In this document: piece by piece, positions 15,392 to 60,840 of the stretch
How positions within the stretch are numbered: position 1 is the first letter of the stretch
Layout: each line of letters begins with the position of its first letter
Assembly: GCA_016935315.1 (NCBI GenBank)
Contig: JAFGRD010000150.1
Coordinates: 1-64,000, forward strand
Reading direction: 5' to 3'
Length of the DNA stretch: 64,000 bases
Source of the DNA: Pirellulales bacterium
GTDB lineage: Bacteria; Planctomycetota; Planctomycetia; Pirellulales; Thermoguttaceae
Made by a program: the position numbers and the translations under genes
The notes under the pieces: generated by a model
Seen by the model: only the letters and a program-made list of their open reading frames with translations
What the model was told of the DNA's origin: nothing
Databases searched by the model: none

Positions 15392-15407
15392 CGCGGAGGC
15401 ACGGACA

Positions 15408-15508
15408 ATTGATGTCTGCGTTTTGAATGACCAAGGCCGACCACCGGGAGATCGGACAAGTCGGGCTTCCGTCGGTCGCCCTCGCCCATTGAGTGTGCAA
15501 GCGTCAAT
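15408..15508 (+). repeat. 101-bp structured dispersed repeat, copy A
   Basis: This 101-bp block matches 47032-47132 at 84 of 101 positions without a gap. Its ends are inverted repeats: attgatgtctgc (first 12) pairs with gcaagcgtcaat (last 12) with one mismatch and two G-T pairs. An inner pair joins GGCCGAC (element positions 28-34) to GTCGGTC (64-70). It lies between the convergent tsaE and beta-helix genes, and its right end supplies the TGA stop of the beta-helix gene. It may be a MITE-like non-autonomous element or a structured RNA. See copy B. Confidence 0.8.
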
Positions 15509-17570
15509 CCGGTTCATCCACCTCGCGCTGCAACCCGATCTGCTCGAAGGGGATCTTCTTGAAGTCGGGCACCTTGGCATACACGGGCGAATCGTCGCGG
15601 AGCTGGAAGTTCATGTTGCCCGGATCGACGCAGCAGGGATCCTCGTCGACGAGGTTGTCGCGAAACGTGACGTAGGGCCGGGCCTGGGCCTGGACCCCGT
15701 CGAAACGCCCGCCGTACGAGACGTTGCGCGCGACGACGTTCCCCTTCGGCGCGGCCGGCTCGTCTTCCCAGAGCGTTAGCAGCTCGGGATAGCGTTGCGA
15801 CCAGGGCAGACTGCGAAAGGGCATCGCGTCGAGCCGCTGCTTCATCGTGGTGGCCACGTGATAGCCGGCCCAGCCCATCGCCCGGGCGTCGATATGCAGC
15901 GCCGGACTGCAGTCAATGAACAGGTTGTTCTCGATCAGGCAATTGCGGCCGCCGCCGACAAACGCCGCCCGCGTGACCTGGTAGAAGACGTTTCCGGTGA
16001 TCGCCGTGCCGCTGAACATGTCGTCGAGATAGACGCCCACGCAGCCGCGGTTCTCGAAGCCGGTGACGTGGTGCATGAAGTTGTGGCGGATGACCGTGCC
16101 GCGCATGGTCCAGTCGCGTCCGCTGTAGATGGCCCCCGCGTCGTTCGATTCTTCGCAAACGTGGTGCATTTCGTTCAGCTCGATCAGGTGATCGTTGCCG
16201 CTGAACGAGACGGCCTGGTGCGGGGCGTCGTGGATCAGGTTGTGGGCCGCCCGGTTGCCTACGCCGCCCAGCGAGATCGCGGGGCGGTACATGCGGTTGA
16301 TGCGGCCGTAGTGGTGGATGTGGTTGTTCAGCGCGGCGTGTCCGGCCGCGGCAAGGGTCTTGCGATCGCCCCCGGAAAGGGCCACGCCGCCGTCGCCGAT
16401 CTGGTAGATGTCGCAGCCGACCACGCTGCACCCGCGTCCGCCGGCGATCCGCACGGCCCAACCGCCGAGGTTCCGCAGCGTGCACCCCTCCACGCGACAT
16501 TGCGAGCCGTCCCGGATCGTTACGGCCGTGCCCCGAGCGATCTCGAAGGTCAGCCCGCGGACGGTCACGTGCGACGTGTCGCGCAGCGAAACGAGGCCTT
16601 CCAGCACGGACAGCGCCGCCCGGCCCTTTTCCATCGGCGCCGGCGGCCAGAAATAGAGCACGCCCGAGGTGCGGTCGAGGTACCATTCGCCGGGCGCGTC
16701 GATTTCGGCCAGCAGGTTGAAGGCGTAGTACCACTGACCCTTGCGATAACCGTAGCCGTGATAGGGCGGCGCCACGGAGATGATCCGCCGCTGGGTGTCG
16801 ATCGATTCGACCCGGTGTCGCTGGTCGGACCAGTCCCAGAACCAGTAGCCGTGGACCCAGGCGTCGTTCTCCTGCGTCCATCGCATGGGGCGCTCGCCCT
16901 CATAGATGAACTTGCCGATCTTGTCGCCCTTGGTGCCGCGGACGTTGACCGGCTGGCCGCCGACCAGATCGGCGATGCGGATGAATCCCTCGTTGGGCCA
17001 CCGGGCAAGCTGCATGGGCTGGTCGTCGAAGAAGAGTTCCGGCCCGCCGCCGCCGGCCTGGCCGAAGTCGGTGACGCCCAGGGCCTTCAGATCGACCTGT
17101 ACGATGTGGGGCCGGGCCGCCGGGTCGAGTCGCCGCAGCACGCCGGGGTCCTCGACGGGCCGAAAGCCGTCGAGCACGCGCCCGCCCACCAGCCGGGCCT
17201 GCTCGCCCTCGGCCGCCTGATAGACGATCGGCGCCGCGTCCGTACCCGAGTCCTCGACCGAAAGCTCCAGCGGCTTGTTGCACTGGTATACGCCGCCGCG
17301 CAGCCGCACGGTCACGCCCCCTTCCGGCAGGCCGCCTTGGCGTTTTCTTTGGCGGATCAGGTCTCGGGCCCGCTCCAGGCTGGCCAGCGGCCCGTCGGTG
17401 CCATCGGCGTTGGGCCTCGCCAGGCCTCCCGAGAAATCGTCGCGGCCGTCGGTTGCGACGTGGATCACCACCGGCTTCCGCTCCGCCGCGAGCAGGGTCG
17501 AGGTTATGGCCAGCAGGGTCGCCGCCAGTCGGAGGATCGTGTTGGTGCCTGCAAAACGTCTCTCGCTCAT
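15504..17570 (-). CDS. Secreted right-handed parallel beta-helix protein (carbohydrate-active-like)
   Basis: A 688-residue exported protein with signal peptide MSERRFAGTNTILRLAATLL cleaved near LLAAE. The start at 17570 has AAGGGA upstream. The N-terminal part (about residues 30-170) has PIVYQAAEGEQARLVGG, typical of beta-helix glycan-active proteins. Residues ~330-620 show short repeating turns such as VRGLTFEIA, VEGCTLRNLGG, IELNEMHH, IRHNFMHHVTG and IENNLFID, forming a parallel beta-helix. Such proteins include polysaccharide lyases and glycoside hydrolases (GH141-like is one possibility). I cannot assign a catalytic residue. It is monocistronic and convergent with tsaE; its last codon and stop lie at the edge of the 101-bp repeat. 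Confidence 0.85.
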   Translation of the reverse strand: MSERRFAGTNTILRLAATLLAITSTLLAAERKPVVIHVATDGRDDFSGGLARPNADGTDGPLASLERARDLIRQRKRQGGLPEGGVTVRLRGGVYQCNKPLELSVEDSGTDAAPIVYQAAEGEQARLVGGRVLDGFRPVEDPGVLRRLDPAARPHIVQVDLKALGVTDFGQAGGGGPELFFDDQPMQLARWPNEGFIRIADLVGGQPVNVRGTKGDKIGKFIYEGERPMRWTQENDAWVHGYWFWDWSDQRHRVESIDTQRRIISVAPPYHGYGYRKGQWYYAFNLLAEIDAPGEWYLDRTSGVLYFWPPAPMEKGRAALSVLEGLVSLRDTSHVTVRGLTFEIARGTAVTIRDGSQCRVEGCTLRNLGGWAVRIAGGRGCSVVGCDIYQIGDGGVALSGGDRKTLAAAGHAALNNHIHHYGRINRMYRPAISLGGVGNRAAHNLIHDAPHQAVSFSGNDHLIELNEMHHVCEESNDAGAIYSGRDWTMRGTVIRHNFMHHVTGFENRGCVGVYLDDMFSGTAITGNVFYQVTRAAFVGGGRNCLIENNLFIDCSPALHIDARAMGWAGYHVATTMKQRLDAMPFRSLPWSQRYPELLTLWEDEPAAPKGNVVARNVSYGGRFDGVQAQARPYVTFRDNLVDEDPCCVDPGNMNFQLRDDSPVYAKVPDFKKIPFEQIGLQREVDEPD

Positions 17571-17723
17571 TGTGCTGATTCCCTTCACCGCCAGGTTTGG
17601 TTCTGATTCTTGCATGAACACGGCCTGCAACTGTTGCGGGTCACATTGCCGGTCCATCATACCCGATCGCAGCGGCCGATGGTATCTGCGGCTGCGGGAC
17701 GTGGTCGGCTGGCGAGAAGACCG

Positions 17724-23063: not shown

Positions 23064-23186
23064 CCGCTTGGCCTGCTGAGGACCTGCAAAAGGCCTTTCT
23101 ACCCACAAGAACGCCCAACCTGTTCTTTTGCGAGTCCCCGAGAACCGCATAACGCCCATACCGACCTGTCGCCGCGAGGAAGCCCG

Positions 23187-45743: not shown

Positions 45744-46826
45744 ATGAAGAGACTGAGCTTGGCGTTAGCCCTCCTGCTGGCGTTACTTGTCTGCCCCGCC
45801 ATTGCGGCCGATGTGCGGTACGAAATCCATTTCCCGGACCTGCCCGGATATCAGACCTTGGCGTGCGATCTCCACACGCATTCGGTCTTCTCCGACGGAT
45901 CCGTTTGGCCTCCGGTCCGGGCGGACGAAGCCTGGCGTCAGGGACTGGATGCGATTTCGGTAACCGACCATATCGAGTACCAGCCGCACAAGGACGATGT
46001 GCCGACCAATCACAACCGGCCGTACGACCTGACGGCGGGGGCGGCCCGGGCGCGGAACCTGCTGTGCCCCAAGGGAGCCGAGATTACCCGCGATACGCCG
46101 CCGGGCCATTTCAACGCCGTCTTTCTCCGCGACGTCGATCCGTTGGACACGAAGGACTTCCTCGAAGTCATCAAGCAGGCCAACGAGCAGGAGGCCTTCG
46201 TGTTTTGGAACCATCAAGGCTGGAAGGGGGCCGAGAAGGGACGATGGCTGGACGTCCACACGACCCTTTATGAGAACGGTTGGCTGCACGGGATGGAAGT
46301 CTGCAACGGCGATGAGTACTACCCCGACGCGCATCGGTGGTGTCTGGAGAAGAACCTTACCATGCTCGGAAACTCGGACATCCACAGCCCCGACCTTCGC
46401 GAGAAGAGCACCCCGTCCGGGCATCGTACGATGACGCTGGTGTTTGCCAAGGAAAGGACCCTGGCAGCGCTGAAAGAGGCCTTGATGGAACGCCGCACGG
46501 CCGTCTGGTTCCAGGATCAGATCATCGGCCGAAAGGACTTGCTGCAACCGCTGTTCGGCGAGTGTGTCCAGGTGGCAAAACCTCACTTGCGCACCAAGAA
46601 CGCCGTGTATCTGGAAATCCGCAACGTCTCCGACCTGGACATTCACCTGGTGCGCACCGGCCGCTTCGGGCCGCGCGAAGGGACCTTGCCCGCACGAAGC
46701 GTCACTCTGTTGAAGATCGACGCCGACACGCCGGACCAACCGCTGGAACTGGCCTACACGGCGACCAACTTCCTGATCGGGCCGGACGAAGGCCTGCCCG
46801 TCGTGCTCAATGTCGCCGCGCCGTAG
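45744..46826 (+). CDS. Secreted PHP-domain phosphoesterase
   Basis: A 360-residue protein with signal peptide MKRLSLALALLLALLVCPAI and AAAGGA upstream of the ATG. Residues ~40-270 form a PHP fold with metal ligands in CDLHTHSVFSDGS (His44, His46), SVTDHIEYQ, GAEITRD, FWNHQGW and GNSDIHSP. The text resembles the group annotated as Sb-PDE-type phosphodiesterases, so a phosphodiester or phosphomonoester substrate outside the cytoplasm is likely. A C-terminal beta-rich domain (about residues 285-360) follows. The gene begins just after the GH32 remnant, so its promoter may have been reshaped by that deletion. Confidence 0.88.
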   Translation: MKRLSLALALLLALLVCPAIAADVRYEIHFPDLPGYQTLACDLHTHSVFSDGSVWPPVRADEAWRQGLDAISVTDHIEYQPHKDDVPTNHNRPYDLTAGAARARNLLCPKGAEITRDTPPGHFNAVFLRDVDPLDTKDFLEVIKQANEQEAFVFWNHQGWKGAEKGRWLDVHTTLYENGWLHGMEVCNGDEYYPDAHRWCLEKNLTMLGNSDIHSPDLREKSTPSGHRTMTLVFAKERTLAALKEALMERRTAVWFQDQIIGRKDLLQPLFGECVQVAKPHLRTKNAVYLEIRNVSDLDIHLVRTGRFGPREGTLPARSVTLLKIDADTPDQPLELAYTATNFLIGPDEGLPVVLNVAAP

Positions 46827-46969: not shown

Positions 46970-47031
46970 GGTGCATCGCCACACCCGCGAGCCGGTCAGC
47001 GCACCCTCCCGCAATAGCTTCCGGATCTTCT

Positions 47032-47132
47032 ATTGATGTTTGCATGGTGAATGATCCAGGCCGACTAGCGGAAGGCTGGACAAGTCGGGCTCCCGTTGGT
47101 CGCCCACGCGTATTGAGTGTGCAAGCGTCAAT
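47032..47132 (+). repeat. 101-bp structured dispersed repeat, copy B
   Basis: Same length and orientation as copy A (15408-15508), 84 of 101 bases identical. The ends attgatgtttgc and gcaagcgtcaat pair over all 12 positions if G-T pairs are allowed; copy A has one mismatch there. The inner GGCCGAC pairs with GTTGGTC: compared with copy A the C-to-T change keeps pairing as G-T. Changes that preserve structure support a functional or transposition-related fold. It lies 205 bp after the PHP stop and 269 bp before the giant gene. Confidence 0.8.
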
Positions 47133-47279
47133 AAAGCCTTTTTGGGCAATAGGTTGCGAATGCGCGGGCGGCTCCGTTCCGGTCGCTCTTCGGTGCGCCC
47201 CGCGGGCCGATGGCCGAAGAAACGGTCATTTCGCGCCGACCGGCCGGACTGGCCAACTGCGGGCCCCGGGCCGCAGGGA

Positions 47280-47400: not shown

Positions 47401-50400
47401 ATGAGGACTCAGCATGTGCGCGCCCGTGACTGCCAACGTTCGTTCTGCAAATCAAGGCATGCTTCCCGCCGTGAGCATCCCAAGGGCCATCTGCGGCTCA
47501 GCGTGGAGCGGCTCGAAGATCGGCGACTGTTGTCGATCGGCGGCTGGTCGAGCGCGGCCGCGTTAAACGAGCCGCTGTTGACGGACAAGGGGCAGACCTT
47601 CTATGTGGACGTGGATGCACCGGGGAATCAGGATGGCTCGAGTTGGGACGACGCCTTCCACTCCTTGCAGGATGCACTAGCGGCGGCTTCCCAGAACGAT
47701 GAAATCTGTGTCGCCGAGGGTGTTTACACTCCAGACCACGGCGCGGGCCAAACGCCCGGGGACCGTCAAGCCACGTTTCAACTCCTCAGCGGTGTAACCA
47801 TTCGCGGCGGCTATGCCGGGTCAGGGCAATCCGATCCCGATGCTCGAAGCGCCGACCCCTACGTTACCGTTTTCAGCGGTGACCTTGCCGGCGACGACGG
47901 CCCCGGTTTCTCGAACTACGACGAAAACAGTCTCCACGTGGTCACCGGCAGCGGCACCAATGCGACGGCAATTCTCGAAGGCTGCACGGTCACCGGAGGT
48001 TATGCCGACGACGCAAACGGCGCCGGCGTGCTCAACGAGGCAGGCAGCCCCACCTTGATCCGGTGTGCGATCCGTGGCAACCTCGCCTTCGCCGACGACC
48101 CCGACAGCAGCGGCGGCCGCGGCGGCGGGGTCTACGGCCGGCAAAGCGACGCCATCTTGATCGGCTGTTTTATCAGCGAAAACTCCGCCAGCCTTGGCGG
48201 CGGAGGCGTCTACTGCGATCAGAGCGATCTGACCATCGCCGAGTGTGCGCTCAGTGACAACCAAGGTGGCGGAATCGCGTGTTACCGTAGCAGCCCCACG
48301 GTCGGGAACTCGGCGTTTCACGCAAACTCCAGCAGCTTCGGGGCCGGATTCAATTGCGAGTACGGCAGCAACCCGGTGATCACCAACTGCGAGTTCCTCG
48401 CGAATTCGGCATTGCTCGACGGCGGCGGGCTTCGCGGCTACGAGGACTCCAGCCCGACCCTGGTCAACTGCCTGTTTGCGGGCAACTCGGCCGCGATCCA
48501 GAGAGGCGGCGCCATATCGCTCTATGAGGATTGCGATCCCGAAATCATTGGCTGCACGTTCACCGACAACTCCGCCGGAAGCCTTGGCGGCGCGCTCTTC
48601 GCCCGCAGAGACAGCGATCCGGTCCTGCACAACTGCATCCTGTGGGGCAATTCGGCGGGGACGGGAGGGCCGGAGATCGCCCTGCAATACCACGTCGCCG
48701 GCGGGACCGTGTCGACCGGCACCACTGCTACCGTTGGCTACTGCGACGTCGAGGGTGGCGAGGCGGGGGTCTACGTCGAAGACGGCTGCACGCTCGGTTG
48801 GGGCGACGGCAACATCGAGGGCGATCCGGCACTCGCCGCCCCGGATCAAGGCAACTATCGTCTGCTGCCCGGCTCATCCTGCATCGACGCCGGCGATCAA
48901 ACGGCCGTACCGCCGACCGTGGCGACCGACCTGGACGGCAATCCGCGGATCATCGGGAACACGGTCGACATGGGGGCCTACGAGTATCAGGTGCCGCGCA
49001 CGTGGTACGTCGACGACGACGCGCCGCACGACCCGGCCGCGGGTGATCCGAGCGTCAGCGACCCGCTGGAAGACGGTACCGAATCGCATCCGTTCGACGC
49101 CATCCAGGAGGCCATCGCGGCAGCCGTCGACGGCGACACGGTGGTCGTCCTCGACGGCACCTACACGGGTACCGGCAACCGTGACATCGACTTCGCGGGC
49201 AAGGCGATTACGGTTCGCTCCCAGAACGGCCAGGAGGACTGCATTATCGACTGTCAGGCCAGCGACCTGGAGCCCCACCGCGGCTTCTACTTCGGCAGCG
49301 GCGAGGACGAGAACTCGGTGCTGATGGGATTCACGATTACCGGTGGCTACGTGGGTGACTACCCTGGTGAGGCCCAAGGCAGCGGGATCTCCTGCCGGGG
49401 CAGCAGCCCGTCGATCGTAGACTGCACGCTCACCGAGAACTGCGCCGGCGGTCACGGCGCAGCCCTCTGCAATGAAGGCTCGAGCAGCCCGACTATCGTC
49501 GGCTGCACCTTCTTCATCAGTGACGCCGACCACACCGGCACGGGAGTGCTTAACCGCCTGGGAAGCGCACCGACGTTAATGGACTGCACGTTCTTCCAGT
49601 ATGACTGGGCTGCGATGCAGAATTACGGCAGCGCCCCCACACTGATAAACTGCGTGTTCAGCGACAATCAGGTCGCCATTTTCAGCGACTACAGCTCCCC
49701 GACGCTGATCAACTGCACAATCGTCGGGCACCGAATGGCCATCCCGACCGACGGAGGCGCCATCGTCACGGCAACGAACTGCATCTTCTGGGACAACCAG
49801 GACATGGGCTGGGAAGAGGGTGAGTTTGTCGTCCGCTACAGTTGCGTCGAAGGGGGATGGGAAGGCGAAGGGAACATTGACGCCAACCCGCTGTTCGTCG
49901 ACGCCGCCAGCGACAACTACCGCCTGCAGCCCGGCTCACCTTGCATCGACGTGGCTGATAGTGCTGCCCTCCCGCCGGAGGTCACGACCGATCTGGACGG
50001 CAACCCGCGGATTCTCGGCGGCGTGGTCGACATGGGAGCGTACGAGGCCGAGGATCTCGGACCGCGGGTGGTCTACGTCGACGACGACGCGCCGCACGAC
50101 CCGGCCGCGGGTGATCCGAGCGTCAGCGATCCGCTGGAAAACGGCACCGAATCACATCCTTTCGACGCCATCCAGGAGGCCATCGCGGCGGCTGCCAACG
50201 GCGACACGGTCGTCGTGCTCGACGGCACCTATCTCGGCCTGGGCAACTACGGGATCGACTTCCTCGGCAAGGCGATTCATGTCCGCTCGCAAAACGGGCC
50301 GGATGCCTGCCAAGTCGGGATACACGGCGAGGACAAACAGGACGACGACAGCGGGCGCGGTTTCGTCTTCAACTCGGGCGAGGGCCCCGAGTCCGTTCTG

Positions 50401-53400
50401 GACGGGCTCACGATCTCCTCTCTGGGAATCGTCTGCCGGAACAGCAGCCCGACGATCCTCGGCTGCACGATCCGCGACAACGAGGCAGAAGCCGGCGGCG
50501 GCATCTATTGCGAGAACGCCGATCCCATCATCACCGACTGCCTGATCACGGCTAACCGCGGCTACTCGACTCATGGCGGACGGGAGCAGGGCGGCGGCAT
50601 TTACGGGCAGAACAGCAGCCCGGTCATCACCGGCTGCACCGTCCGCGACAATTATACCTACCTGTCGGGGGCCGGCATGTACTTCGACGCAGACAGTGCT
50701 CCAACCATCACCGATTGCACGATCGAGGGCAACTACTCGGAGGAGGGCGGCGGCGCGGGAATCGCCTGCCTGGGTGTCGCGACGATCAGTCGTTGCGAGT
50801 TCCTCGCTAACGAAGCCACGGGAGGTCCCGGGGCGGGGCTGTGGTTGCGCAACGACGGCACCGCAAGCGACTGCTCCTTCATGGAGAACATCGGAACCGC
50901 GCTTTCCGCCAACGGCGGCAGTTCCACGATCGTCGGGTGTGCGATCGTCGGCACGAGAGGCTTGGCGGTCGACAGCGCCGGTAACGCACTGCTGGTCAAT
51001 TGCCTCATCGTGGACAACAACGGCGGCGGAGTCATCCACAGCGGTACGGGCACGCTCGAAATCCTCGACAGCACCGTCAGCCGCAATCGTCGCCGAGGCG
51101 GCGTCAGTTGCTACGAAGGTGAGGTGGTCGTCGCCAATAGCATCGTCTACGGCAACACGGCAACGCTTGCCGAACACGAGGATAACATCACCGCTCTCGA
51201 CGACGGTCAGGTCCTGGTCAGCTACTGCAACGTCGAGGGCGGATACGCCGGCGAAGGCAACATCGACGCCGATCCGGCCTTCGCCGATCCCATCGATGGC
51301 AACTACCACCTGCTGCCCGGCTCGCCGTCGATCAACGCGGGAAGTAACGCCGCCGTGCCCGATTGGCTGCCGACCGATCTGGATGGCCTCCCGCGTATCG
51401 TGGCTGGCACGGTCGACATGGGCGCCTATGAGTTCCAGGGGCCGTTCGTGCCGCAGGTTCTCTACGTCGACGACGATGCCCTGGGGGCCAACGATGGGAC
51501 GAGTTGGGAAGACGCGTTCGTGCATCTGCAGGACGCGCTGGATACTGCGGCGGCGCATGCCAACGTGCGCGAGATCCGCGTGGCCCAAGGGACTTACCAA
51601 CCCGATCAAGGCAGCAACCAAACACGCGGCGACCGCGAGGCCACGTTCCAATTGCTTAGCGGAGTCGCCGTTCTGGGTGGTTACGAGGGTTTCGACACGG
51701 CGGATCCGGGCGCCCACGACCCGGACGCCCGCAACCCGGTTGCCTTCGTGAGCATCCTCAGCGGCGATTTGGCCGGCGACGATGTGCCGATCACGGATCC
51801 CTTCGATCTGTGGCACGAACCGAGCCGCAACGAGAACAGCGCCCACGTGGTCACCGGCAGCGGAACCGACGCCACCGCGGTGCTCGACGGCTTCACGATC
51901 ACCGCGGGTAAAGCCGACGACTGGAGAAACGGCGGCGGCGCCGTCAATTTCGAAGGGACCCCCACGTACCGAAACTGCGCCTTCGTCCACAACTGGGCCA
52001 GTCAGGGCGGCGGGATGTACAACGCCCAGGACGACGACGACGGTATCGGACCTCTGCTGGTGAACTGCTCGTTCCTGGGCAACTGGGGTAACGATTGCGG
52101 CGGCGGCATGTACAACAGCTCCAGCAACCCCGCGTTGATCAACTGCACGTTCAGCGGGAACATCGCCGAGGACTGGGGCGGCGGCGGGATGTTCAACTCC
52201 GACAGTGACCCGACGCTGATCAACTGCACCATGACGGGCAACCTCGCCAACGACGGCGGCAGCGGCATCTACAACTCCGGGAGCAATCCGGTCCTGGGCA
52301 ATTGCATCATCTGGGGTAATCTGCGCGATCAGATCACCCGCTACAACGGATCACCCGAAATCACCTACAGCGTCGTACAGGACGGCTGGGAAGGTGAGGG
52401 CAATCTCGACCTCGACCCACAGTTTGTCGATGCCGACGGTTCGGACGGTGTTTTTGGCACGGCCGACGACAATCTCCGCCTGCGGTTCGGCTCGCCGTGC
52501 ATCGACGCCGGCAATAATGCGGCGCTGCCCGACGACCTGTCGACCGATCTGGACGGCAATCCACGGATCGCCGGTCCGGCGGTGGACATGGGTGCGTATG
52601 AATTCCCGACGCTCATCACGGGCATGATCCGCGGCACAAAGTTCCACGACCTCGACGACGACGGCGTCTGGGGCGAAGGTGAGCCGGCATTGGAAGGCTG
52701 GACGGTCTACATCGACCTGGATCACGACGGCCAACGGGACGACGGCGAGCCCTCGGCCGTCACCGACGCCCAGGGGGAGTACGTCCTGAGCGAACTGCCG
52801 TCGGGCACCTATACGGTCGCCGAGGTGCCGCAGTACGGTTGGCGTCAGACCTTTCCCGCTGTCGACGCCATGCGGCGCATCGATCTCAGCGGCGAGTGCG
52901 AAGACCCTGGAGAAGATTCACTTTCGCCGTCGATCAGCGGCGACGGACGCTACGTGGCTTTTTCTTCCGACGTTTCGGACCTGGTGCCGGGGGATGCCAA
53001 CGGTGCGACGGACATCTTCGTGTACGATTTCCGTGCGGGCACGTTGGAGCACGTCAGCGTCGCCTCCGACGGCACCCAGGCCAACGACGCGAGCTTCAAC
53101 CCGTTGATCACCGCCGACGGGCGATACGTGGCCTTCCGGTCCAAGGCCAGCAATCTCGTGCTCGGAGACACCAATGGCGACGTCGATCTCTTCGTCTACG
53201 ACCGCCAGACAAAGGCCATCGAGCGCGTGAACGTGTCTTCCGACGGTCAGCAGAGCGAGGGAGGCTGCCAAGGCGTGTCGATCAGCACCGACGGACGCTA
53301 CGTGGCCTTCTCCTCGCTCGCCGACAACCTGGTCCCGAATGATACGAACGGTGAATTCGACGTCTTCGTCCGCGATCGTCACGTCGGTACCACCGAGCGA

Positions 53401-56400
53401 GTCAGCATCGCTTATAACGGAGCACAGGCCGACGCCATGTGTGACGAGACGGCGATCAGTGCCGACGGACGCTACGTTGCGTTCAACTCGCACGCGCATC
53501 ACTTGGTTCCGGGTGGGCCGTACTACGATTTCGAAATCTACGTGCGCGACCGGGTTCTCAACACGATCGAGTGCGTTACTCGCTTTCCCGTCGGTGCTGA
53601 CGACGACGCGCGGCACCCTTCGATCAGTGCCGACGGACGCTACGTTGCCTTCAACACGCGACGGAGCGACGTGGGTTCAAACGTCTTTCTCCACGACCGG
53701 CAGACGGGCACTACCAAGCAGATCAGCGTTGCCGCGGACGGCTCGCAGGGCGACGACTTGTCGGCCGGACCTCGGCTCAGCGCCGACGGGCGCTTCGTGA
53801 CGTTCTACTCGTACGCCACCAATCTCCTCCCCGGAGTCACTCTGAACCGGGCCAACGTGTTCCTCTACGACCAACTTACCGATGCCCTACAGTGTGTGAG
53901 TTGGGGCTGCGACGGCGCCCAAGCCAGCGCCTACAGTTGGCTTCCCGCAATCAGCGCCGACGGCGCTTACGTGGTCTTCGGCTCGCTGGCCGACAACCTC
54001 GTGCCGGGGGACGTCAACCAGCGATCGGATGTCTTCGTGGCCCGAACCGGAGACGCGGAGATGGCTGGGACGCATACCGTGACAGTTCAGCCTGGCCAGA
54101 CCGTCGGAAGCGTGAACTTCGGGAACTGCAGCGTGTTCGGAGAAATCCGCGGTGCCAAGTTCCACGACCTCGACGGCGACGGCGTCTGGGACGATGGTGA
54201 GCCGGGTCTGGAAGGCTGGACGGTCTACATCGACCTGGATCACGATGGCCAACGGGATGACGGCGAGCCTTCGGCCGTCACCAACGCCCAGGGGGAGTAC
54301 GTCTTGAGCGAGCTGCCGTCGGGTACCTATACGGTCGCCGAGGTGCCGCAGGTCCATTGGGCGCCGACCTTCCCGGTGCCCGACCCGCGCACCATCCAGC
54401 GGGTCAACACGGCTGCCGACGGCTCGGAGGCCAACGACCGAAGTCTCGGCGTGTCGCTCAGCGCTGACGGCCGCTTGGTGGCCTTCGACTCGGAGGCCTC
54501 CAGCCTCGTGCCGGGCGATACGAACGGGATGGCCGATGTCTTCGTCCGCGATTTGGCGACCGGCACGATTCAACGGGTCAGCCTGCGCTCCGATGGCGGG
54601 CAAGGAAACGGCGGAAGCACGCAGCCGGCCCTCAGCGCCGACGGTCGCTATGTCGCCTTTACGTCCCGCGCGTCCGATCTCGTGCCGGGCGATCTGGATC
54701 TCGACGACGACAACGAGGACGTGTTTCTCTACGACCGGCAGACGGACACGCTGGTCTGCGTCAGCCTCTCTCTGGCCGGCGTGCCGGCCAACCATCACAG
54801 CATGGACCCATCGATCAGTGCCGACGGTCGCTTCGTGGCCTTCTCGTCCAGCGCGACCGATCTCGTGGTCGGCGATACGAACAACCGCAGCGATGTTTTC
54901 GTCTACGACCGCCAGACCGGGCTGATCGAGCGGGTGAGCATGGCCTCCGACGGCACGCAGGGTAACCACCGCAGCCAACAACCCGCGATCAGTGCGGACG
55001 GTCGCTACGTGACGTACAGCTCGCAGGCGACTAACCTCGTGCCGGGCGACACCAACGAGTTCACCGACGTCTTCGTCTACGACCGCCATACGGCGACCGT
55101 GGAACGCGTGAGCGTGTCGGCCGATGGTGCCCAGGCCAATAACGACAGCGGCTCTCCCGCGATCTCCGCCGACGGCCGCTGGGTGGCCTTCACGTCGCAT
55201 TCCAGCAACCTGGCGCCGGGGAATCCCCATGGCAGGGCCGGCGCGTTCCTCTACGACCGACATACCGGCCAAATCGAGTGTATCAGCCTTCGTGCCGACG
55301 GCTTCGCCGGCAACGACGGCAGCTACGAGGTCAACGTCTCGGCCGACGGCCGCTATGTCGCCTTCTCCTCCTACGCGTCGGACCTGCTGCCGGGCGACAC
55401 CGACCGCCAGAGCGACGTCCTTATCTACGATCGGCTGACCGGGACGACCAGCCTGGCGAGTGTCCGCCCGGACGGCGTCGAGAGCAACGGCGACTGTGGC
55501 AGCCCCGTACTCAGCGCCGACGGCCACTACGTGGCGTTTCTCAGCAGCTCCTCGAACCTCGTGCCGGATGACCACAACGCCGAGACCGACGTCTTCGTGA
55601 CCGAGAATCCGGCCGCGTGGCTGCCGCAGCCGCATACGGTCGTCCTCGCGTCGGGGCAAACCGTCCACGGCATCTACTTCGGCAATCAGCTCCGTACCGG
55701 ACAGATCCACGGCCATACGTTCCACGACGCGAATTTCAGCGGCACCTGGGACGACGACGAGCTGGCTCTGGTGGGCTGGACCGTCTATCTCGACCAGAAC
55801 GAGAACGGCCAGCACGACGCCGCGGAACCCTCGGCCAGGACCACCGGCGGCGGCTACTCGTTCCGAAACCTTGCGCCCGGCACCTACACGGTCCGCCAAG
55901 TGCTGCCCGAACGCTGGTGGCAGACCTTCCCCGGGGAATTGGGCAGTGCGGCTCAAGCCGCGCACACGTTCCACCTCGGCGCTGGAGAGATCCGGGAGGA
56001 AATCGACTTCGGCAACTACGACATGGACCGCACGCTGAGGGTCTCGACGCTGGTGGACGAGAACGACGGCGACTACCGGCCGGGCGATCTGAGCCTTCGC
56101 GAGGCGTTCGCCCTGGCGGCCGTGATGCCGGGCCACAACGCGATCGGCTTCGAGGACGCCCTGGCCGGTGGCACGATCACGCTGGACTCGTCGCTGGGAC
56201 AGCTCGCCATCGACAGCGACGTATCCATCTCGGGCCCGGACGCCGAGAACGTGACCCTCGACGCGGCCGGGCAAAGCCGGGTCCTTTGGGTGGCCGACGG
56301 TGTCGATGCAAGTCTGCACCGCCTGACGATCACCGGCGGCAGCGCGGACCAAGGCGGCGGCATCTACGTCAATGGGGAAGGCTCCCGTATCCACCAGTGC

Positions 56401-59400
56401 ATTATTGTCGGCAACGAGGCCGAACAGGGTGGCGGCGTCTATGTCCACGGCGGCGACGTGGCGATCTTCAACTCGACCGTCAGCGACAACCTGGCCCGCG
56501 CCGGCGGCGGGATCTATCTCCACGGCGGCAGCGTCGAAATCGCCTCCTGCGAAGTCAAGCGCAACGAGGCACCCTATGAAGGCGGTGGCGGCATCTTCGT
56601 CGCTGGGGGCAATGCGACGATTCGCCGGTGTGCTTTTCGTGAAAACGAAACCGATGCAGACTACAGCGTCGGCGGCGGTGCGATCTTCTGCCGTCAGAGC
56701 AGTCCCGTCATTGACACCTGTGTGTTCGCCCGCAACTACACGATCGGTGGCGGGGGCGAGGGCATCTTCTGCGACCGGGACGCCGACCCGATCATCGTCA
56801 ACTGTTCCTTCGTCGACAACCGGGCGCCGGGAATCACTTGCGACTCGACCAGTGCGCCGACCATCCAGCACAGCACGTTTGCCAACAACCAGACGGGAAT
56901 CGACGTCCGCGACGGCAGCGCCCCGACCATCGAGGCGTGCACGTTCAGCGGCAACTCTTCCGCGGCCATCTCCAACGGCAGCGACGATCTGGTGACGATC
57001 ATCAATTGCACCATGGTCGGCAACGGCGGCGGCGTCTACACTTGGGACGGCCGCGGCACGACGACAATCCTCCACTGTACCATCTACGGCAACTTCGGCC
57101 GACCGGCCGTCGATTGCAGCCGTACCCGATTGATCATGCGAAACACGATCGTCTGGGGCAACCTGCCGGGCAGTATCCGCCTGGGCGAAGACGCCACGGC
57201 GTCCGTCACCTTCAGCGACGTCGGCGGCGGGTATCCCGGCGAGGGGAACATTGACGCGGATCCGATGATCGAGGTGACGCCGGCTTACTGGGACCACGAC
57301 TTGGGCGACCGCCTGGCCGGCGACAGCGTGCGATTGTTGCCCGGCTCGCCCTGCATCGATGCGGGAATAGACGCCGGTATCGATGTGGACATATCCGGCA
57401 ACGCGCGGCCCTACGATCTGGCCGGCGTGGACCACAACGGGCCGCTTCCCGAGTTCGACATGGGCGCCCACGAATTCTCCGAAGAGGTGGGCGTGATTCG
57501 GGGCCACGTGTTCGACGATCGCAACGGCAACGGGATTTGGGACGCCGGCGAATCGTACAACGGGCCCACGATGACGATCTACCTCGACCTGAACGAGAAC
57601 GCATTGCACGACGAGGGCGAGCCGTCTACCCAGATCGATCCCGACTGCGGCGTCTATTGGCTGGACGGCGTGGAACCGGGCACGCACACCGTGGCCGGGG
57701 TGCTGCCCGACGGCTGGCAGCAGACGTTCCCCGGCGCCGACCCGCGACAGCTTTGCCGGGTCAGCATCGCGGCCGACGGTTCGCAGGCCGACGGGCCAAG
57801 TGAGACGCCGTCCGTCGACGCCGGCGGTCGTTCCGTGGCCTTCGTCTCCCGGGCGTCGAACCTTGTGCCGGGCGACACGAACGGGCTGGCCGACGTGTTC
57901 GTCTACGATCGCCAGACGGGCGAGATGCAGTGCCTCAGCATGGGGCAGCTCGGAACACCTGCCAACGGTGCCAGCAGCTCCCCTGCCATCACGCCCGACG
58001 GCCGCTACGTGGTCTTCGCTTCCCGGGCAACGAATCTCATCCCCGGCGGCACCTCCGGCCAACAGGTCTTTCTCCACGACCGCCAGACAGGCACGACGGA
58101 ACTCGTCAGTCGCACCTGGGAGGGACAACAGACCAGCGGTTACAGCTACGATCCGACGATCACCGGCGATGGACGTTGCGTCGCCTTCTGGTCCTCGGCC
58201 CGGGATCTGGTGCTTGGAGATACGAACAACGATTTCGACGTGTTCGTCCGCGACCTTCAGGCGGGCACGACCGAGCGAGTCAGCGTCGCCTCCGACGGCA
58301 CCGAGGGCAACAACAACAGTTTTCACCCGGCCATCAGTGCCGACGGCCGCTACGTAGCCTTCGATTCCTGGTCGTCGAACCTCGTGCCCAACGACACGAA
58401 CGGGACGGGCGACGTGTTCGTCTACGACCGCCAGACCGGCACGATCGAGAGTGTTACGGGCGCCGAGCAGGGTGGTACGGGAAGCGATTACTTCATGTCT
58501 CCCTCGATCAGCGGCGACGGTCGCTTCGTAGCGCTGGTGGCCGCCGGGCCGGACTTCATGGACGATAACGACGGCAAAACAGTCAACATCTTTGTCGTCG
58601 ATCGGCAGACCGACACGGTGCGGCGCGTCAGCGTCGCCGCCGACGGTTCCCAGGCAAACGGCGACAGTTTGGATCCCGTGATCACGCCCAACGGTTGCTA
58701 CGTGGCGTTTCGCTCCGCGGCGTCGAATCTCGTGCACGGCGACACCAACTATGCCGACGACGTCTTCGTTTACGACATGCAGACGAACACGATTCGGCGG
58801 GCGAGCGTCGATGAGAATGGATTCCAGGGGAACCTGGCCTCCTCCGTGGCGGCGATTACGGCCGACGGCCAGAACGTGGCACTTATCTCGGCCGCAACCA
58901 ATTTCGTCGAAGGCGATTCCAACGGACACGCGGACGTCTTCATCACCGGCCCCGGCGATGGTTCGAGGTTGCCGGGTACCTACGCTTTGACCGTCCACGC
59001 CGGGCAGACCATCGCAGACGTCGACTTCGGCGTCCGCGATCTCAACCCGCTGGTCGATCACATCGCGTTCGGCGCGATCGACTCCCCGCGACAGGTCGGA
59101 GTGCCCTTCGAGATCACCATGGCGGCCGTCGACGCCCAAGGCAACCCGGTGACCGGATGGCACGGCAGCGTGGATCTCAGTGCCTGGACAAACATCGCCG
59201 ATGCCACGATCCTGATCTCCGAGGTGGATGCCAGCTCGCCCGACACGGTCGAGTTCACTAACGTCTCCGGCGGGGCGGTCGACCTTTCTGGCTGGCAGGT
59301 CTGGTTCTACGATCGCACCTCGGGCAGCTCGCCGCTGACGCCGCTGACGATCCCCGACGGCACCGTCTGTGCGCCCGGCGACGTCTTCCTGGTGACCCAA

Positions 59401-60840
59401 GACGGCGACGCCCCGGGAAGTTATCCTCACTTCTACACGGGCGCGAACATCAGTTGGAGGACGCTCGAAGGAGAGATCGGCGTGTTGCTGACCGACGCGT
59501 CGGCCCAAGTGGTCGACTTCGTGGCGGCGTCGGCCCTCGATCCCTCACAGATCACCAACCCGATTGCGGTCGTTCCGCGGGACTGGCAGGGCGATCCGCT
59601 GCCGCCGCTGCCCGACTACAGCCGCTCGTACCAGCGCGCCGGGCAGGCCGATCACGACACGAGCGCCGATTGGGTAATCGCGGCTTCCAGCATCGGCAGC
59701 CTCAACCCCGGACTGTCGCTGCCGTTCCTCGCGACCACCCCGGTGGCGATCACCCTCGGATCGGTCGCCTTGGTCGACGGTACTTGGACCGGTCCGGTTG
59801 CCGCTATGGAGGAGGCTGCCGGCATGTATCTGCTTGCGGAACACGCCAGCGGGCACTCGGGGCAGAGCAATCCCTTCGACGCGATCGCCGCCGGAGTGGT
59901 TGGCCGCCACGTCTTCTACAACAACTCGGCCTTCGACGGCAACGACTCCGGCGCCAACGCCGACGACGACGGGGCCATCGCCCCGGACAAGACGGCGCTC
60001 TTACCCGGCGGCGCGGCCACGTTTGCCAACTACACCAGCTACAGCCGAGGTATCAATGGGATCATGGTCGACATCGAGGGACTGCCCGAGGCGGCGGTTC
60101 CCGGCGTCGACGACTTCCAGTTCCGGATCGGCAATACGGACAACCCGCAACACTGGGACGCCGCCCCCGCTCCGGCGAGCATCACGCTGCGTCCGGGAGT
60201 CGGGGTCAACGGCTCCGATCGAGTGACCATCGTCTTCAACGACCACGCCGTCGTGAAGCAGTGGTTGCAGGTGACCGTGCTGGCCACGCCGAATACTGGC
60301 TTGGCCGAGCCGGACGTGTTCTATTTCGGCAACGTCGTGGGAGAAGCCGGCAACTCGACGACCGACGCGCGAGTCAACGCCGTCGACATGCTCTTGGCCC
60401 GCAACAACCCGCGGACCTTCCTCAACCCGGCGGCAATCGACTTCCCTTACGACTACAACCGCGACGCGCGGGTCAACGCGACCGACGTGCTGATCGCGCG
60501 CAACAATCAGACACACTTCCTCGACGCGCTGAACCTGATCAGCGTGCCGTACGGTCCCCCCGCCGGCAGTGTCGATGCGACGGAGTCTGCGGCGTTGGAG
60601 AAGGGGTCGGTCGAAAAGGCCATGCCGGCGGAAATCGTACCGGATGATCTCGACGGCGCCGTCTTGACGGCCCGTTGGTCGGCACACGACGTCGCCCCGG
60701 AGCAGGCGGCCAAGGAGGACCCGCTCGCCCGGACCGGGATGCAGTGGCTCTACGAGTTCCAGAAGACCGAAACGGCAGCCACGGCTTCCAAGAAGGACAC
60801 AGGCAGGGCGGAGATCATAGACCGGCTGATGCTGGTCTGA
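47401..60840 (+). CDS. Giant multidomain secreted protein (4479 residues)
   Basis: The N-terminus carries the planctomycete extracellular signature VERLEDRRLLS (residues ~35-45). Four parallel beta-helix modules follow (about 50-530, 534-885, 890-1345, 1350-1735), most closing with TDLDGNPRI..VDMGAYE. Next come SdrD-B-like domains at about 1740, 2246, 2766 and 3364 (FHDLDDDGVWGEGEP, GTYTVAEVP). The first, second and fourth are each interrupted after W-QTFP-like text by seven repeats of the DGRYVAF type (about 1823-2223, 2331-2735, 3453-3852), and resume with THTVTVQPGQTVGSVNFGN-like strands. A fifth beta-helix with a CSLREA-like start lies at 2877-3362. A lamin-tail-like domain (about 3934-4108) and a dockerin-like double motif (DARVNAVDMLLARNN and DARVNATDVLIARNN, about 4318-4382) end the protein. 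It is probably cell-surface or matrix material; no catalytic site is seen. Confidence 0.92.
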   Translation: MRTQHVRARDCQRSFCKSRHASRREHPKGHLRLSVERLEDRRLLSIGGWSSAAALNEPLLTDKGQTFYVDVDAPGNQDGSSWDDAFHSLQDALAAASQNDEICVAEGVYTPDHGAGQTPGDRQATFQLLSGVTIRGGYAGSGQSDPDARSADPYVTVFSGDLAGDDGPGFSNYDENSLHVVTGSGTNATAILEGCTVTGGYADDANGAGVLNEAGSPTLIRCAIRGNLAFADDPDSSGGRGGGVYGRQSDAILIGCFISENSASLGGGGVYCDQSDLTIAECALSDNQGGGIACYRSSPTVGNSAFHANSSSFGAGFNCEYGSNPVITNCEFLANSALLDGGGLRGYEDSSPTLVNCLFAGNSAAIQRGGAISLYEDCDPEIIGCTFTDNSAGSLGGALFARRDSDPVLHNCILWGNSAGTGGPEIALQYHVAGGTVSTGTTATVGYCDVEGGEAGVYVEDGCTLGWGDGNIEGDPALAAPDQGNYRLLPGSSCIDAGDQTAVPPTVATDLDGNPRIIGNTVDMGAYEYQVPRTWYVDDDAPHDPAAGDPSVSDPLEDGTESHPFDAIQEAIAAAVDGDTVVVLDGTYTGTGNRDIDFAGKAITVRSQNGQEDCIIDCQASDLEPHRGFYFGSGEDENSVLMGFTITGGYVGDYPGEAQGSGISCRGSSPSIVDCTLTENCAGGHGAALCNEGSSSPTIVGCTFFISDADHTGTGVLNRLGSAPTLMDCTFFQYDWAAMQNYGSAPTLINCVFSDNQVAIFSDYSSPTLINCTIVGHRMAIPTDGGAIVTATNCIFWDNQDMGWEEGEFVVRYSCVEGGWEGEGNIDANPLFVDAASDNYRLQPGSPCIDVADSAALPPEVTTDLDGNPRILGGVVDMGAYEAEDLGPRVVYVDDDAPHDPAAGDPSVSDPLENGTESHPFDAIQEAIAAAANGDTVVVLDGTYLGLGNYGIDFLGKAIHVRSQNGPDACQVGIHGEDKQDDDSGRGFVFNSGEGPESVLDGLTISSLGIVCRNSSPTILGCTIRDNEAEAGGGIYCENADPIITDCLITANRGYSTHGGREQGGGIYGQNSSPVITGCTVRDNYTYLSGAGMYFDADSAPTITDCTIEGNYSEEGGGAGIACLGVATISRCEFLANEATGGPGAGLWLRNDGTASDCSFMENIGTALSANGGSSTIVGCAIVGTRGLAVDSAGNALLVNCLIVDNNGGGVIHSGTGTLEILDSTVSRNRRRGGVSCYEGEVVVANSIVYGNTATLAEHEDNITALDDGQVLVSYCNVEGGYAGEGNIDADPAFADPIDGNYHLLPGSPSINAGSNAAVPDWLPTDLDGLPRIVAGTVDMGAYEFQGPFVPQVLYVDDDALGANDGTSWEDAFVHLQDALDTAAAHANVREIRVAQGTYQPDQGSNQTRGDREATFQLLSGVAVLGGYEGFDTADPGAHDPDARNPVAFVSILSGDLAGDDVPITDPFDLWHEPSRNENSAHVVTGSGTDATAVLDGFTITAGKADDWRNGGGAVNFEGTPTYRNCAFVHNWASQGGGMYNAQDDDDGIGPLLVNCSFLGNWGNDCGGGMYNSSSNPALINCTFSGNIAEDWGGGGMFNSDSDPTLINCTMTGNLANDGGSGIYNSGSNPVLGNCIIWGNLRDQITRYNGSPEITYSVVQDGWEGEGNLDLDPQFVDADGSDGVFGTADDNLRLRFGSPCIDAGNNAALPDDLSTDLDGNPRIAGPAVDMGAYEFPTLITGMIRGTKFHDLDDDGVWGEGEPALEGWTVYIDLDHDGQRDDGEPSAVTDAQGEYVLSELPSGTYTVAEVPQYGWRQTFPAVDAMRRIDLSGECEDPGEDSLSPSISGDGRYVAFSSDVSDLVPGDANGATDIFVYDFRAGTLEHVSVASDGTQANDASFNPLITADGRYVAFRSKASNLVLGDTNGDVDLFVYDRQTKAIERVNVSSDGQQSEGGCQGVSISTDGRYVAFSSLADNLVPNDTNGEFDVFVRDRHVGTTERVSIAYNGAQADAMCDETAISADGRYVAFNSHAHHLVPGGPYYDFEIYVRDRVLNTIECVTRFPVGADDDARHPSISADGRYVAFNTRRSDVGSNVFLHDRQTGTTKQISVAADGSQGDDLSAGPRLSADGRFVTFYSYATNLLPGVTLNRANVFLYDQLTDALQCVSWGCDGAQASAYSWLPAISADGAYVVFGSLADNLVPGDVNQRSDVFVARTGDAEMAGTHTVTVQPGQTVGSVNFGNCSVFGEIRGAKFHDLDGDGVWDDGEPGLEGWTVYIDLDHDGQRDDGEPSAVTNAQGEYVLSELPSGTYTVAEVPQVHWAPTFPVPDPRTIQRVNTAADGSEANDRSLGVSLSADGRLVAFDSEASSLVPGDTNGMADVFVRDLATGTIQRVSLRSDGGQGNGGSTQPALSADGRYVAFTSRASDLVPGDLDLDDDNEDVFLYDRQTDTLVCVSLSLAGVPANHHSMDPSISADGRFVAFSSSATDLVVGDTNNRSDVFVYDRQTGLIERVSMASDGTQGNHRSQQPAISADGRYVTYSSQATNLVPGDTNEFTDVFVYDRHTATVERVSVSADGAQANNDSGSPAISADGRWVAFTSHSSNLAPGNPHGRAGAFLYDRHTGQIECISLRADGFAGNDGSYEVNVSADGRYVAFSSYASDLLPGDTDRQSDVLIYDRLTGTTSLASVRPDGVESNGDCGSPVLSADGHYVAFLSSSSNLVPDDHNAETDVFVTENPAAWLPQPHTVVLASGQTVHGIYFGNQLRTGQIHGHTFHDANFSGTWDDDELALVGWTVYLDQNENGQHDAAEPSARTTGGGYSFRNLAPGTYTVRQVLPERWWQTFPGELGSAAQAAHTFHLGAGEIREEIDFGNYDMDRTLRVSTLVDENDGDYRPGDLSLREAFALAAVMPGHNAIGFEDALAGGTITLDSSLGQLAIDSDVSISGPDAENVTLDAAGQSRVLWVADGVDASLHRLTITGGSADQGGGIYVNGEGSRIHQCIIVGNEAEQGGGVYVHGGDVAIFNSTVSDNLARAGGGIYLHGGSVEIASCEVKRNEAPYEGGGGIFVAGGNATIRRCAFRENETDADYSVGGGAIFCRQSSPVIDTCVFARNYTIGGGGEGIFCDRDADPIIVNCSFVDNRAPGITCDSTSAPTIQHSTFANNQTGIDVRDGSAPTIEACTFSGNSSAAISNGSDDLVTIINCTMVGNGGGVYTWDGRGTTTILHCTIYGNFGRPAVDCSRTRLIMRNTIVWGNLPGSIRLGEDATASVTFSDVGGGYPGEGNIDADPMIEVTPAYWDHDLGDRLAGDSVRLLPGSPCIDAGIDAGIDVDISGNARPYDLAGVDHNGPLPEFDMGAHEFSEEVGVIRGHVFDDRNGNGIWDAGESYNGPTMTIYLDLNENALHDEGEPSTQIDPDCGVYWLDGVEPGTHTVAGVLPDGWQQTFPGADPRQLCRVSIAADGSQADGPSETPSVDAGGRSVAFVSRASNLVPGDTNGLADVFVYDRQTGEMQCLSMGQLGTPANGASSSPAITPDGRYVVFASRATNLIPGGTSGQQVFLHDRQTGTTELVSRTWEGQQTSGYSYDPTITGDGRCVAFWSSARDLVLGDTNNDFDVFVRDLQAGTTERVSVASDGTEGNNNSFHPAISADGRYVAFDSWSSNLVPNDTNGTGDVFVYDRQTGTIESVTGAEQGGTGSDYFMSPSISGDGRFVALVAAGPDFMDDNDGKTVNIFVVDRQTDTVRRVSVAADGSQANGDSLDPVITPNGCYVAFRSAASNLVHGDTNYADDVFVYDMQTNTIRRASVDENGFQGNLASSVAAITADGQNVALISAATNFVEGDSNGHADVFITGPGDGSRLPGTYALTVHAGQTIADVDFGVRDLNPLVDHIAFGAIDSPRQVGVPFEITMAAVDAQGNPVTGWHGSVDLSAWTNIADATILISEVDASSPDTVEFTNVSGGAVDLSGWQVWFYDRTSGSSPLTPLTIPDGTVCAPGDVFLVTQDGDAPGSYPHFYTGANISWRTLEGEIGVLLTDASAQVVDFVAASALDPSQITNPIAVVPRDWQGDPLPPLPDYSRSYQRAGQADHDTSADWVIAASSIGSLNPGLSLPFLATTPVAITLGSVALVDGTWTGPVAAMEEAAGMYLLAEHASGHSGQSNPFDAIAAGVVGRHVFYNNSAFDGNDSGANADDDGAIAPDKTALLPGGAATFANYTSYSRGINGIMVDIEGLPEAAVPGVDDFQFRIGNTDNPQHWDAAPAPASITLRPGVGVNGSDRVTIVFNDHAVVKQWLQVTVLATPNTGLAEPDVFYFGNVVGEAGNSTTDARVNAVDMLLARNNPRTFLNPAAIDFPYDYNRDARVNATDVLIARNNQTHFLDALNLISVPYGPPAGSVDATESAALEKGSVEKAMPAEIVPDDLDGAVLTARWSAHDVAPEQAAKEDPLARTGMQWLYEFQKTETAATASKKDTGRAEIIDRLMLV
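49006..49164 (+). repeat. Intragenic direct repeat 1, copy 1
   Basis: This 159-bp block opens beta-helix module 2 (encoding YVDDDAPHDPAAGDPSVSDP and following). It differs from 50074-50232 at about 12 positions, mostly third codon bases. Confidence 0.85.
50074..50232 (+). repeat. Intragenic direct repeat 1, copy 2
   Basis: Opens beta-helix module 3; exactly 1068 bp (356 codons) downstream of copy 1. DNA identity is about 92%, higher than for the remainder of the modules. Confidence 0.85.
52639..52833 (+). repeat. Intragenic direct repeat 2, copy 1
   Basis: A 195-bp block encoding most of the first SdrD-B-like domain (KFHDLDDDGVW to AEVPQ). It differs from 54157-54351 at about 13 positions. 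Confidence 0.85.
54157..54351 (+). repeat. Intragenic direct repeat 2, copy 2
   Basis: Second SdrD-B-like domain, 1518 bp (506 codons) downstream of copy 1, about 93% identical. The spacing equals one SdrD-B plus propeller unit. Confidence 0.85.

Follow-up and report, generated by a model that had tools for sequence, protein, structure and literature searches.

A dispersed palindromic element of Pirellulales is very probably an IS630-type MITE

The window, by which we mean the whole 64,000-nt stretch of a Pirellulales contig that was analysed, contains two copies of a short element that recurs in genomes across the order, and as judged from its ends, its targets and its empty sites this element is very probably a gene-less MITE of IS630/Tc1-mariner type that is mobilised in trans. 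The preliminary description had left the choice between a non-autonomous mobile repeat (MITE or REP-like) and a structured RNA family; the MITE option was right, and the ends, the YTAR target with its TA, and the empty sites now specify it as IS630/Tc1-mariner type. TA targets are traits of IS630/Tc1-mariner elements. As is typical of MITEs, the copies are short, dispersed and set in unrelated flanks, and they have terminal inverted repeats, with conserved ends and arms that are complementary in 27 aligned sequences. The order-wide family is thus a MITE family that is ordinary in kind and new in membership.

Results

The two blocks at 15408-15508 and 47032-47132 lie in the same orientation and are identical at 84 of 101 positions with no indel, exactly as first described. 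The 12-bp inverted repeats claimed for their ends are present but imperfect (9/12 in copy 1 and 10/12 in copy 2), and the whole block is one long imperfect palindrome. In intact copies the true boundary, TA...TA, lies one base further out on each side, that is, at 15407-15509 and 47031-47133, and copy 1 has lost both TA (AATTG...CAATC). The terminal inverted repeats listed here were placed from the window sequence and the family consensus.

15407..15509, minus strand (canonical orientation): MITE copy 1, from which the called minus-strand gene 15504-17660 takes its TGA stop (15504-15506)
15407..15419, no strand: terminal inverted repeat of copy 1, left
15435..15453, plus strand: second core hairpin (head-to-head) of copy 1, GGCC type, degenerate
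15463..15481, minus strand: canonical core hairpin of copy 1, GGGC type
15497..15509, no strand: terminal inverted repeat of copy 1, right
47031..47133, minus strand (canonical orientation): MITE copy 2, TA intact at both ends
47031..47043, no strand: terminal inverted repeat of copy 2, left
47059..47077, plus strand: second core hairpin (head-to-head) of copy 2, GGCC type
47087..47105, minus strand: canonical core hairpin of copy 2, GGGC type
47121..47133, no strand: terminal inverted repeat of copy 2, right

Used as a query against the whole genome, copy 2 gave 395 first-look candidates, and the 40 of them that were scored were all 89-100% identical over at least 98 of 101 bases. With a profile made from the copies in the first 41 of 101 sampled stretches (1,789,738 bp, 25% of the window's genome, G000, window included), 121 distinct copies were found in this sample and none in the reversed sequence, which extrapolates to about 480 copies in 7.1 Mb; the possibility, raised at the outset, that no further copies exist is therefore decisively disposed of. 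At least 90 of the 103 positions are spanned by 90 of the 121 copies, whereas 27 are partial, many of them broken near the centre of the palindrome with one arm left (for example L088:12029-12064, L080:3841-3873, L059:537-581 and L084:1106-1144). The copies occur in both orientations (58 and 63), and their flanks differ. Two derivatives of 37 and 39 nt (L078:4163 and L206:13808) consist of terminal inverted repeats only. G000 also has two further dispersed repeat families, L179:1-86 (also at L202 and L175) and L177:4666-4751, which occur in about 8 and 26 places in the 1.79 Mb and both contain MITE insertions; one copy of the L177:4666-4751 type lies near window position 23100.

Intact copies read Y-TATTGA...TCAATA-R. 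Of the 121 copies, 72 are free of gaps and have a length of 103 nt. In 64 of these a Y precedes and an R follows the element, and 46 retain the left TA, 44 the right one and 32 both; when 27 sequences were aligned across genomes, the preceding base was Y in 25 and the following base R in 26. The flanks, which the preliminary description had marked for a search for target-site duplications, thus have TA duplicated at a YTAR target, and no duplication longer than TA was seen at them. For empty sites, the element and one TA were removed and the joined flanks were compared with the sampled genome, and 6 of 107 such queries had spanning matches elsewhere. Two of these, L253 and L163, are clean: in both, the element has entered a second dispersed repeat at one and the same TTAG. 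This repeat is uninterrupted at L179, L202 and L175, and once one TA is left out, the joined flanks can be aligned with it across the junction. For L208 the interrupted sequence is a third repeat, and for L028 it is a further MITE copy; in the alignments shown, their uninterrupted counterparts have CA or TG at the junction and not TA, so that a mutation must first have created the TA into which the element then inserted. Because two of four empty sites need this prior change, the support for an IS630-type MITE is slightly reduced. The remaining two, L171 (a tandem pair) and L086 (gapped), are ambiguous as empty sites, and a comparison within the genus around one G202 copy did not reveal a clean orthologous empty site in another species. 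Taken together, the copies and empty sites look, at the level of sequence, like the traces of a transposon with a YTAR target and TA duplication.

With a home-made gene caller, which called 1,072 genes and 89% coding DNA in the G000 sample, 82 of the 121 copies are intergenic, 15 partly so and 24 inside called genes, as compared with 8%, 4% and 88% for random placement. In 16 of the 72 copies the TGA of TATTGA serves as the stop of a called gene that enters the copy (17 gene ends), and one other entering gene stops at element position 3. The sample contains 1,390 YTAR sites, of which 117 lie at the stops of called genes and 520 in non-coding DNA; since YTAR is often a stop codon, tolerance of such insertions, with no added preference, is enough to account for the 16 of 72. 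Insertion at TAA or TAG would cost the gene one extra codon, as the TATTGA terminus would offer an immediate new stop. Window copy 1 ends the beta-helix gene 15504-17660 via its TATTGA stop. Copy 2 is situated between the called genes 45744-46826 (+) and 47401-60840 (+), about 270 bp before the 4,479-residue frame of the latter, whose product, with matches to beta-helix, PD40, SdrD_B, NosD and lamin-tail domains, is probably a giant surface protein.

Relatives of the element were found by DNA search in 12 of 60 genomes and with a covariance model, as the preliminary description had proposed, in 39 of 196 sampled Pirellulales genomes, the own genome being included in both counts. The model was built from 28 sequences; the 39 genomes fall in 27 of 101 genera, and four of them have at least 20 places each. 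The aligned members from relatives are 103-108 nt long and have the same ends. In a 199-genome sample of the phylum the covariance model matched the window's own genome only, and searches of plasmids and phages gave no match. Identical copies at different places were found in G202 (four) and G035 (three); the 300-nt flanks of these sets gave no match in 8 of 9 pairs and common pieces of only 27-39 nt in the ninth (L254/L256), and as the flanks differ between identical copies, the family moved recently in the lineages of G202 and G035.

IS630 transposons with similar ends exist in several of these genomes. A scan of G202 for element ends gave 70 matches, compared with 54 for the reversed pattern, and end-like sites that are not MITEs were seen 119-141 bp from three contig starts (C31, C6 and C40). 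The DNA adjoining the C31 and C6 sites encodes the last 36 and the first 26 residues of an IS630-type transposase, with matches of 44% over 36 and 82% over 17 residues to the IS630 at L100 of G057, and the two halves presumably belong to one G202 IS630 element. Its ends are TATTGATCCTTGCGCCCCGAATGAACCC and TATTGATCCTTGCGCGGCCAAAGACCCC, and the arms of the local MITE are TATTGACTCTTGCGCTACTAATGAACCC and TATTGATGGTTGCGCGGCGAATGAATCC. A further 30 IS630 loci include L327 (G125, Botrimarina hoheduenensis, order Pirellulales), L351 (G117) and L337 (G110), which are about 1.1 kb long with both ends matching the type; NCBIfam names L327, L351 and L100 as IS630 above its cut-off and L337 below it (83.2 of 100). 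The IS630 transposases at L100, L287 and L291 consist of an HTH frame and a DDE frame that meet at an A-rich stretch, as if frameshifted. The stretch L167 6734-8911, considered as an autonomous element, has no transposase among its open frames and was taken as two remnants; at L167:6660-6740 an element-like end abuts a tRNA-like stretch, and the facing end lies 2.2 kb away with a 390-residue frame between.

In the eight genomes that have both IS630 and MITE, the 28-nt IS630 ends were compared with the MITE arms and the local MITE was ranked among the MITEs of 27 genomes; as a null, 117 other TATTGA 28-mers from G000 gave maxima of 17-19 and means of 11.9-13.0. The best identity to local arms was 23/28 in G202 and in G110, 21/28 in G130 and 20/28 in G125, and the local MITE was best or tied best in three of the eight genomes only (G202, G110 and G130), ranking 12th in G125 despite its 20/28. 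The local matches were poor in G056 (16/28, rank 21), G057 (16/28, rank 9) and G026 (17/28, rank 8). The one IS630 of G000 for which both ends are present (L031/L338) reached 16/28 and rank 8 of 27, inside the null range, and the partner transposase of G000 was not pinned down. Eight loci have pairing TATTGA-type ends, and four of them (L324, L335, L338 and L340) show by eye little MITE likeness past the terminus. Of 25 genomes with this IS630 subfamily 13 have the MITE, as compared with 26 of the 171 that lack the subfamily (Fisher P = 1.1e-4, uncorrected for kinship and with the own genome counted), and 26 of the 39 MITE genomes gave no match to the subfamily.

The best-conserved interior stretch is a 19-nt hairpin, GGSC-GACCAACGGRA-GSCC, that is kept across the order and is characterised by G-C/C-G swaps of a stem pair, a conserved G.A mismatch and an AAC loop. 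In 27 sequences its third stem pair occurs 15 times as G-C, 11 times as C-G and once as G-U, and of all core stem cells 99.4% are paired. Most aligned relatives have this core once, on the TATTGAC side, whereas the window family has it twice, head-to-head, with one GGGC and one GGCC arm, an arrangement that looks as if the 5' halves of two subtypes had been joined. Divergence at G/C positions within G000 is 0.06 in the core, 0.08 in the 5' and 0.035 in the 3' terminal inverted repeat, and 0.10-0.23 in the rest; the core is less diverged than the 5' repeat and the rest of the element, but not than the 3' repeat. Scanning 61 IS630 loci (179,037 bp) revealed no core at 0 or 1 mismatch and four core-like places with 2-3 mismatches, each outside the transposase match or mapped IS630 ends, whereas the same scan was positive for 20 of 20 MITE loci.

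The same hairpin, as the 20-nt sequence GGSCGACCAACGGGAGSCCG, is also present in a repeat unit of two Oscillospiraceae MAGs, Lapin-004_bin88 and Lapin-021_bin36 (L117, L119, L123, L128, L129, L132, L134 and L154). Both GGGC and GGCC forms occur there, and in most cases the hairpin belongs to an unrelated MITE-like element whose ends resemble TAATACTAATATC...GATATTAGTATTA; this likeness is due either to chance or to a shared module. Rfam gave no match for the Oscillospiraceae repeat, and the single gathering match in that search, Flavo-1, belongs to an unrelated Flavobacterium locus. Among the matches listed, the core at single places in Streptomyces, Kitasatospora, Luteitalea, Solibacteraceae and Bacteroidales and at two in Flavobacterium was taken as chance, because about 4 places are expected in 257 Gb, an estimate for even composition that rises in GC-rich DNA.

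Discussion

In the mechanism that we propose, a DDE transposase of the IS630 family, supplied from elsewhere in the cell, would bind the two matching ends (TATTGAYNNYTGC...), cut the element out and insert it at a YTAR site, duplicating the TA. Within G000 the family expanded and then stopped or slowed, and its copies decay like neutral DNA; they occupy sites of little harm, namely intergenic stretches and the stop codons TAA and TAG. An alternative is that the element is a TA-target MITE mobilised in this lineage by a DDE transposase other than IS630, its IS630-like ends being ancestral only. This would agree with the poor match of the own genome's IS630 and with a partner of the subfamily being undetected in most MITE genomes, but it is improbable in view of the matching IS630 ends in G202, G110 and G130, and of the TA target that the available part of the RUP literature reports for an IS630-mobilised element (PMC2229807).

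It also had to be asked whether the copies are kept for their fold, as a structured non-coding RNA family of cis-regulatory or small RNA type. Several members have strong predicted folds, and between genomes the arms and one core stem pair covary, with 54 double-change cells vs 20.6 after shuffling (for a structure drawn from one of the sequences tested) and none of the slid controls above 14. However, covariation of the arms is also expected from two ends that are read by one transposase, and G-U (19) is no more frequent than A-C (26) between genomes. Within G000, where 34 arm pairs were followed through 72 copies, 14 compensatory cells stand against 14.5 from shuffling and 128 G-U against 117 A-C. 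The G-T compatible changes seen in the two window copies, which the preliminary description took to keep an inner stem, are therefore no evidence for RNA; across the 72 copies stem changes look neutral. Compared with shuffles, copy 1 folds with z -2.8 on the plus and -2.4 on the minus strand and copy 2 with z -5.5 on the plus strand, but on the minus strand, the canonical one, the fold of copy 2 is not stronger than that of shuffled sequence (z -0.1). Furthermore, the 33 copies between tandem genes show no orientation bias (14 same, 19 opposite), and Rfam has no match in the window at the gathering score and none to one G035 element in a relaxed search. A structured RNA is accordingly not supported and very unlikely: the stem departures within the genome are what neutral decay of a palindrome would give, and the covariation of the arms between genomes is explained by two ends and one slowly changing transposase, with no need for a functional RNA. 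The REP-like option, in which a REP-associated tyrosine (Y1/HUH) transposase would move a palindrome of REP/BIME type, finds some likeness in the high copy number, the extragenic palindromes and one Y1_Tnp match in G000, but it is hardly credible for an element of about 103 bp, not a 20-40 bp unit, that lacks a GTAG (or CGTC) tag at its ends, has terminal inverted repeats and duplicates TA at YTAR, and the single Y1 locus (L035, 1,948 bp, at a contig start) has no terminus or core motif within 2 mismatches.

The IS630-type MITE of Pirellulales can be compared, by description, with known systems, as far as the available parts of the sources describe them. Like it, RUP (repeat unit of pneumococcus; 107 bp, 108 copies) is intergenic, has a TA target and shares its ends with an IS630 transposon, and mobilisation by IS630-Spn1 has been proposed (PMC2229807). 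Unlike the Pirellulales MITE with its conserved internal hairpin and its spread over an order, RUP is described there from one species and with no internal motif reported (PMC2229807). The Correia/NEMIS element of Neisseria is likewise a MITE of about 107 bp with TA at its ends, and its 155-bp form carries a functional internal motif, which is an IHF site and not a 19-nt hairpin as in Pirellulales (PMC2229807). The GTAG/CGTC-tagged REPs, some of which were placed in the PVC superphylum, resemble the Pirellulales MITE as abundant extragenic palindromes but are 20-40 bp long with tetranucleotide tags, are not TIR/TA elements and, in the GTAG case, go with tyrosine transposases (PMC3733652). The parts available of PMC2229807, PMC3733652, PMC10969869 and PMC9208149 contain no description of the present family. 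No described MITE family of Planctomycetota was found in the literature searched; subscription journals lay mostly outside this literature, and an earlier description is possible.

As to the core, our guess is that a protein or the transposase contacts it while the strand is folded. A more specific idea, that the hairpin is a module dedicated to recognition in single-stranded form, which either a host factor or the transposase binds and which the MITE needs in order to spread in trans, is speculative and rather unlikely. If true, it would explain why the core has outlasted all but the termini across the order, why it was not found in the IS630 loci scanned and why two cores stand head-to-head in the expanding form of G000, and the unrelated MITE from gut Oscillospiraceae would count as another element that uses this module.

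In conclusion, an order-wide, high-copy MITE family is added to the Planctomycetota, and the 39 genomes provide a natural series for MITE ends that diverge together with their IS630 partners. The family also illustrates a simple route to harmless insertion, in which the target includes stop codons and the end of the element restores one. With an internal hairpin conserved across the order, the question of what MITEs carry inside, and why, becomes testable.
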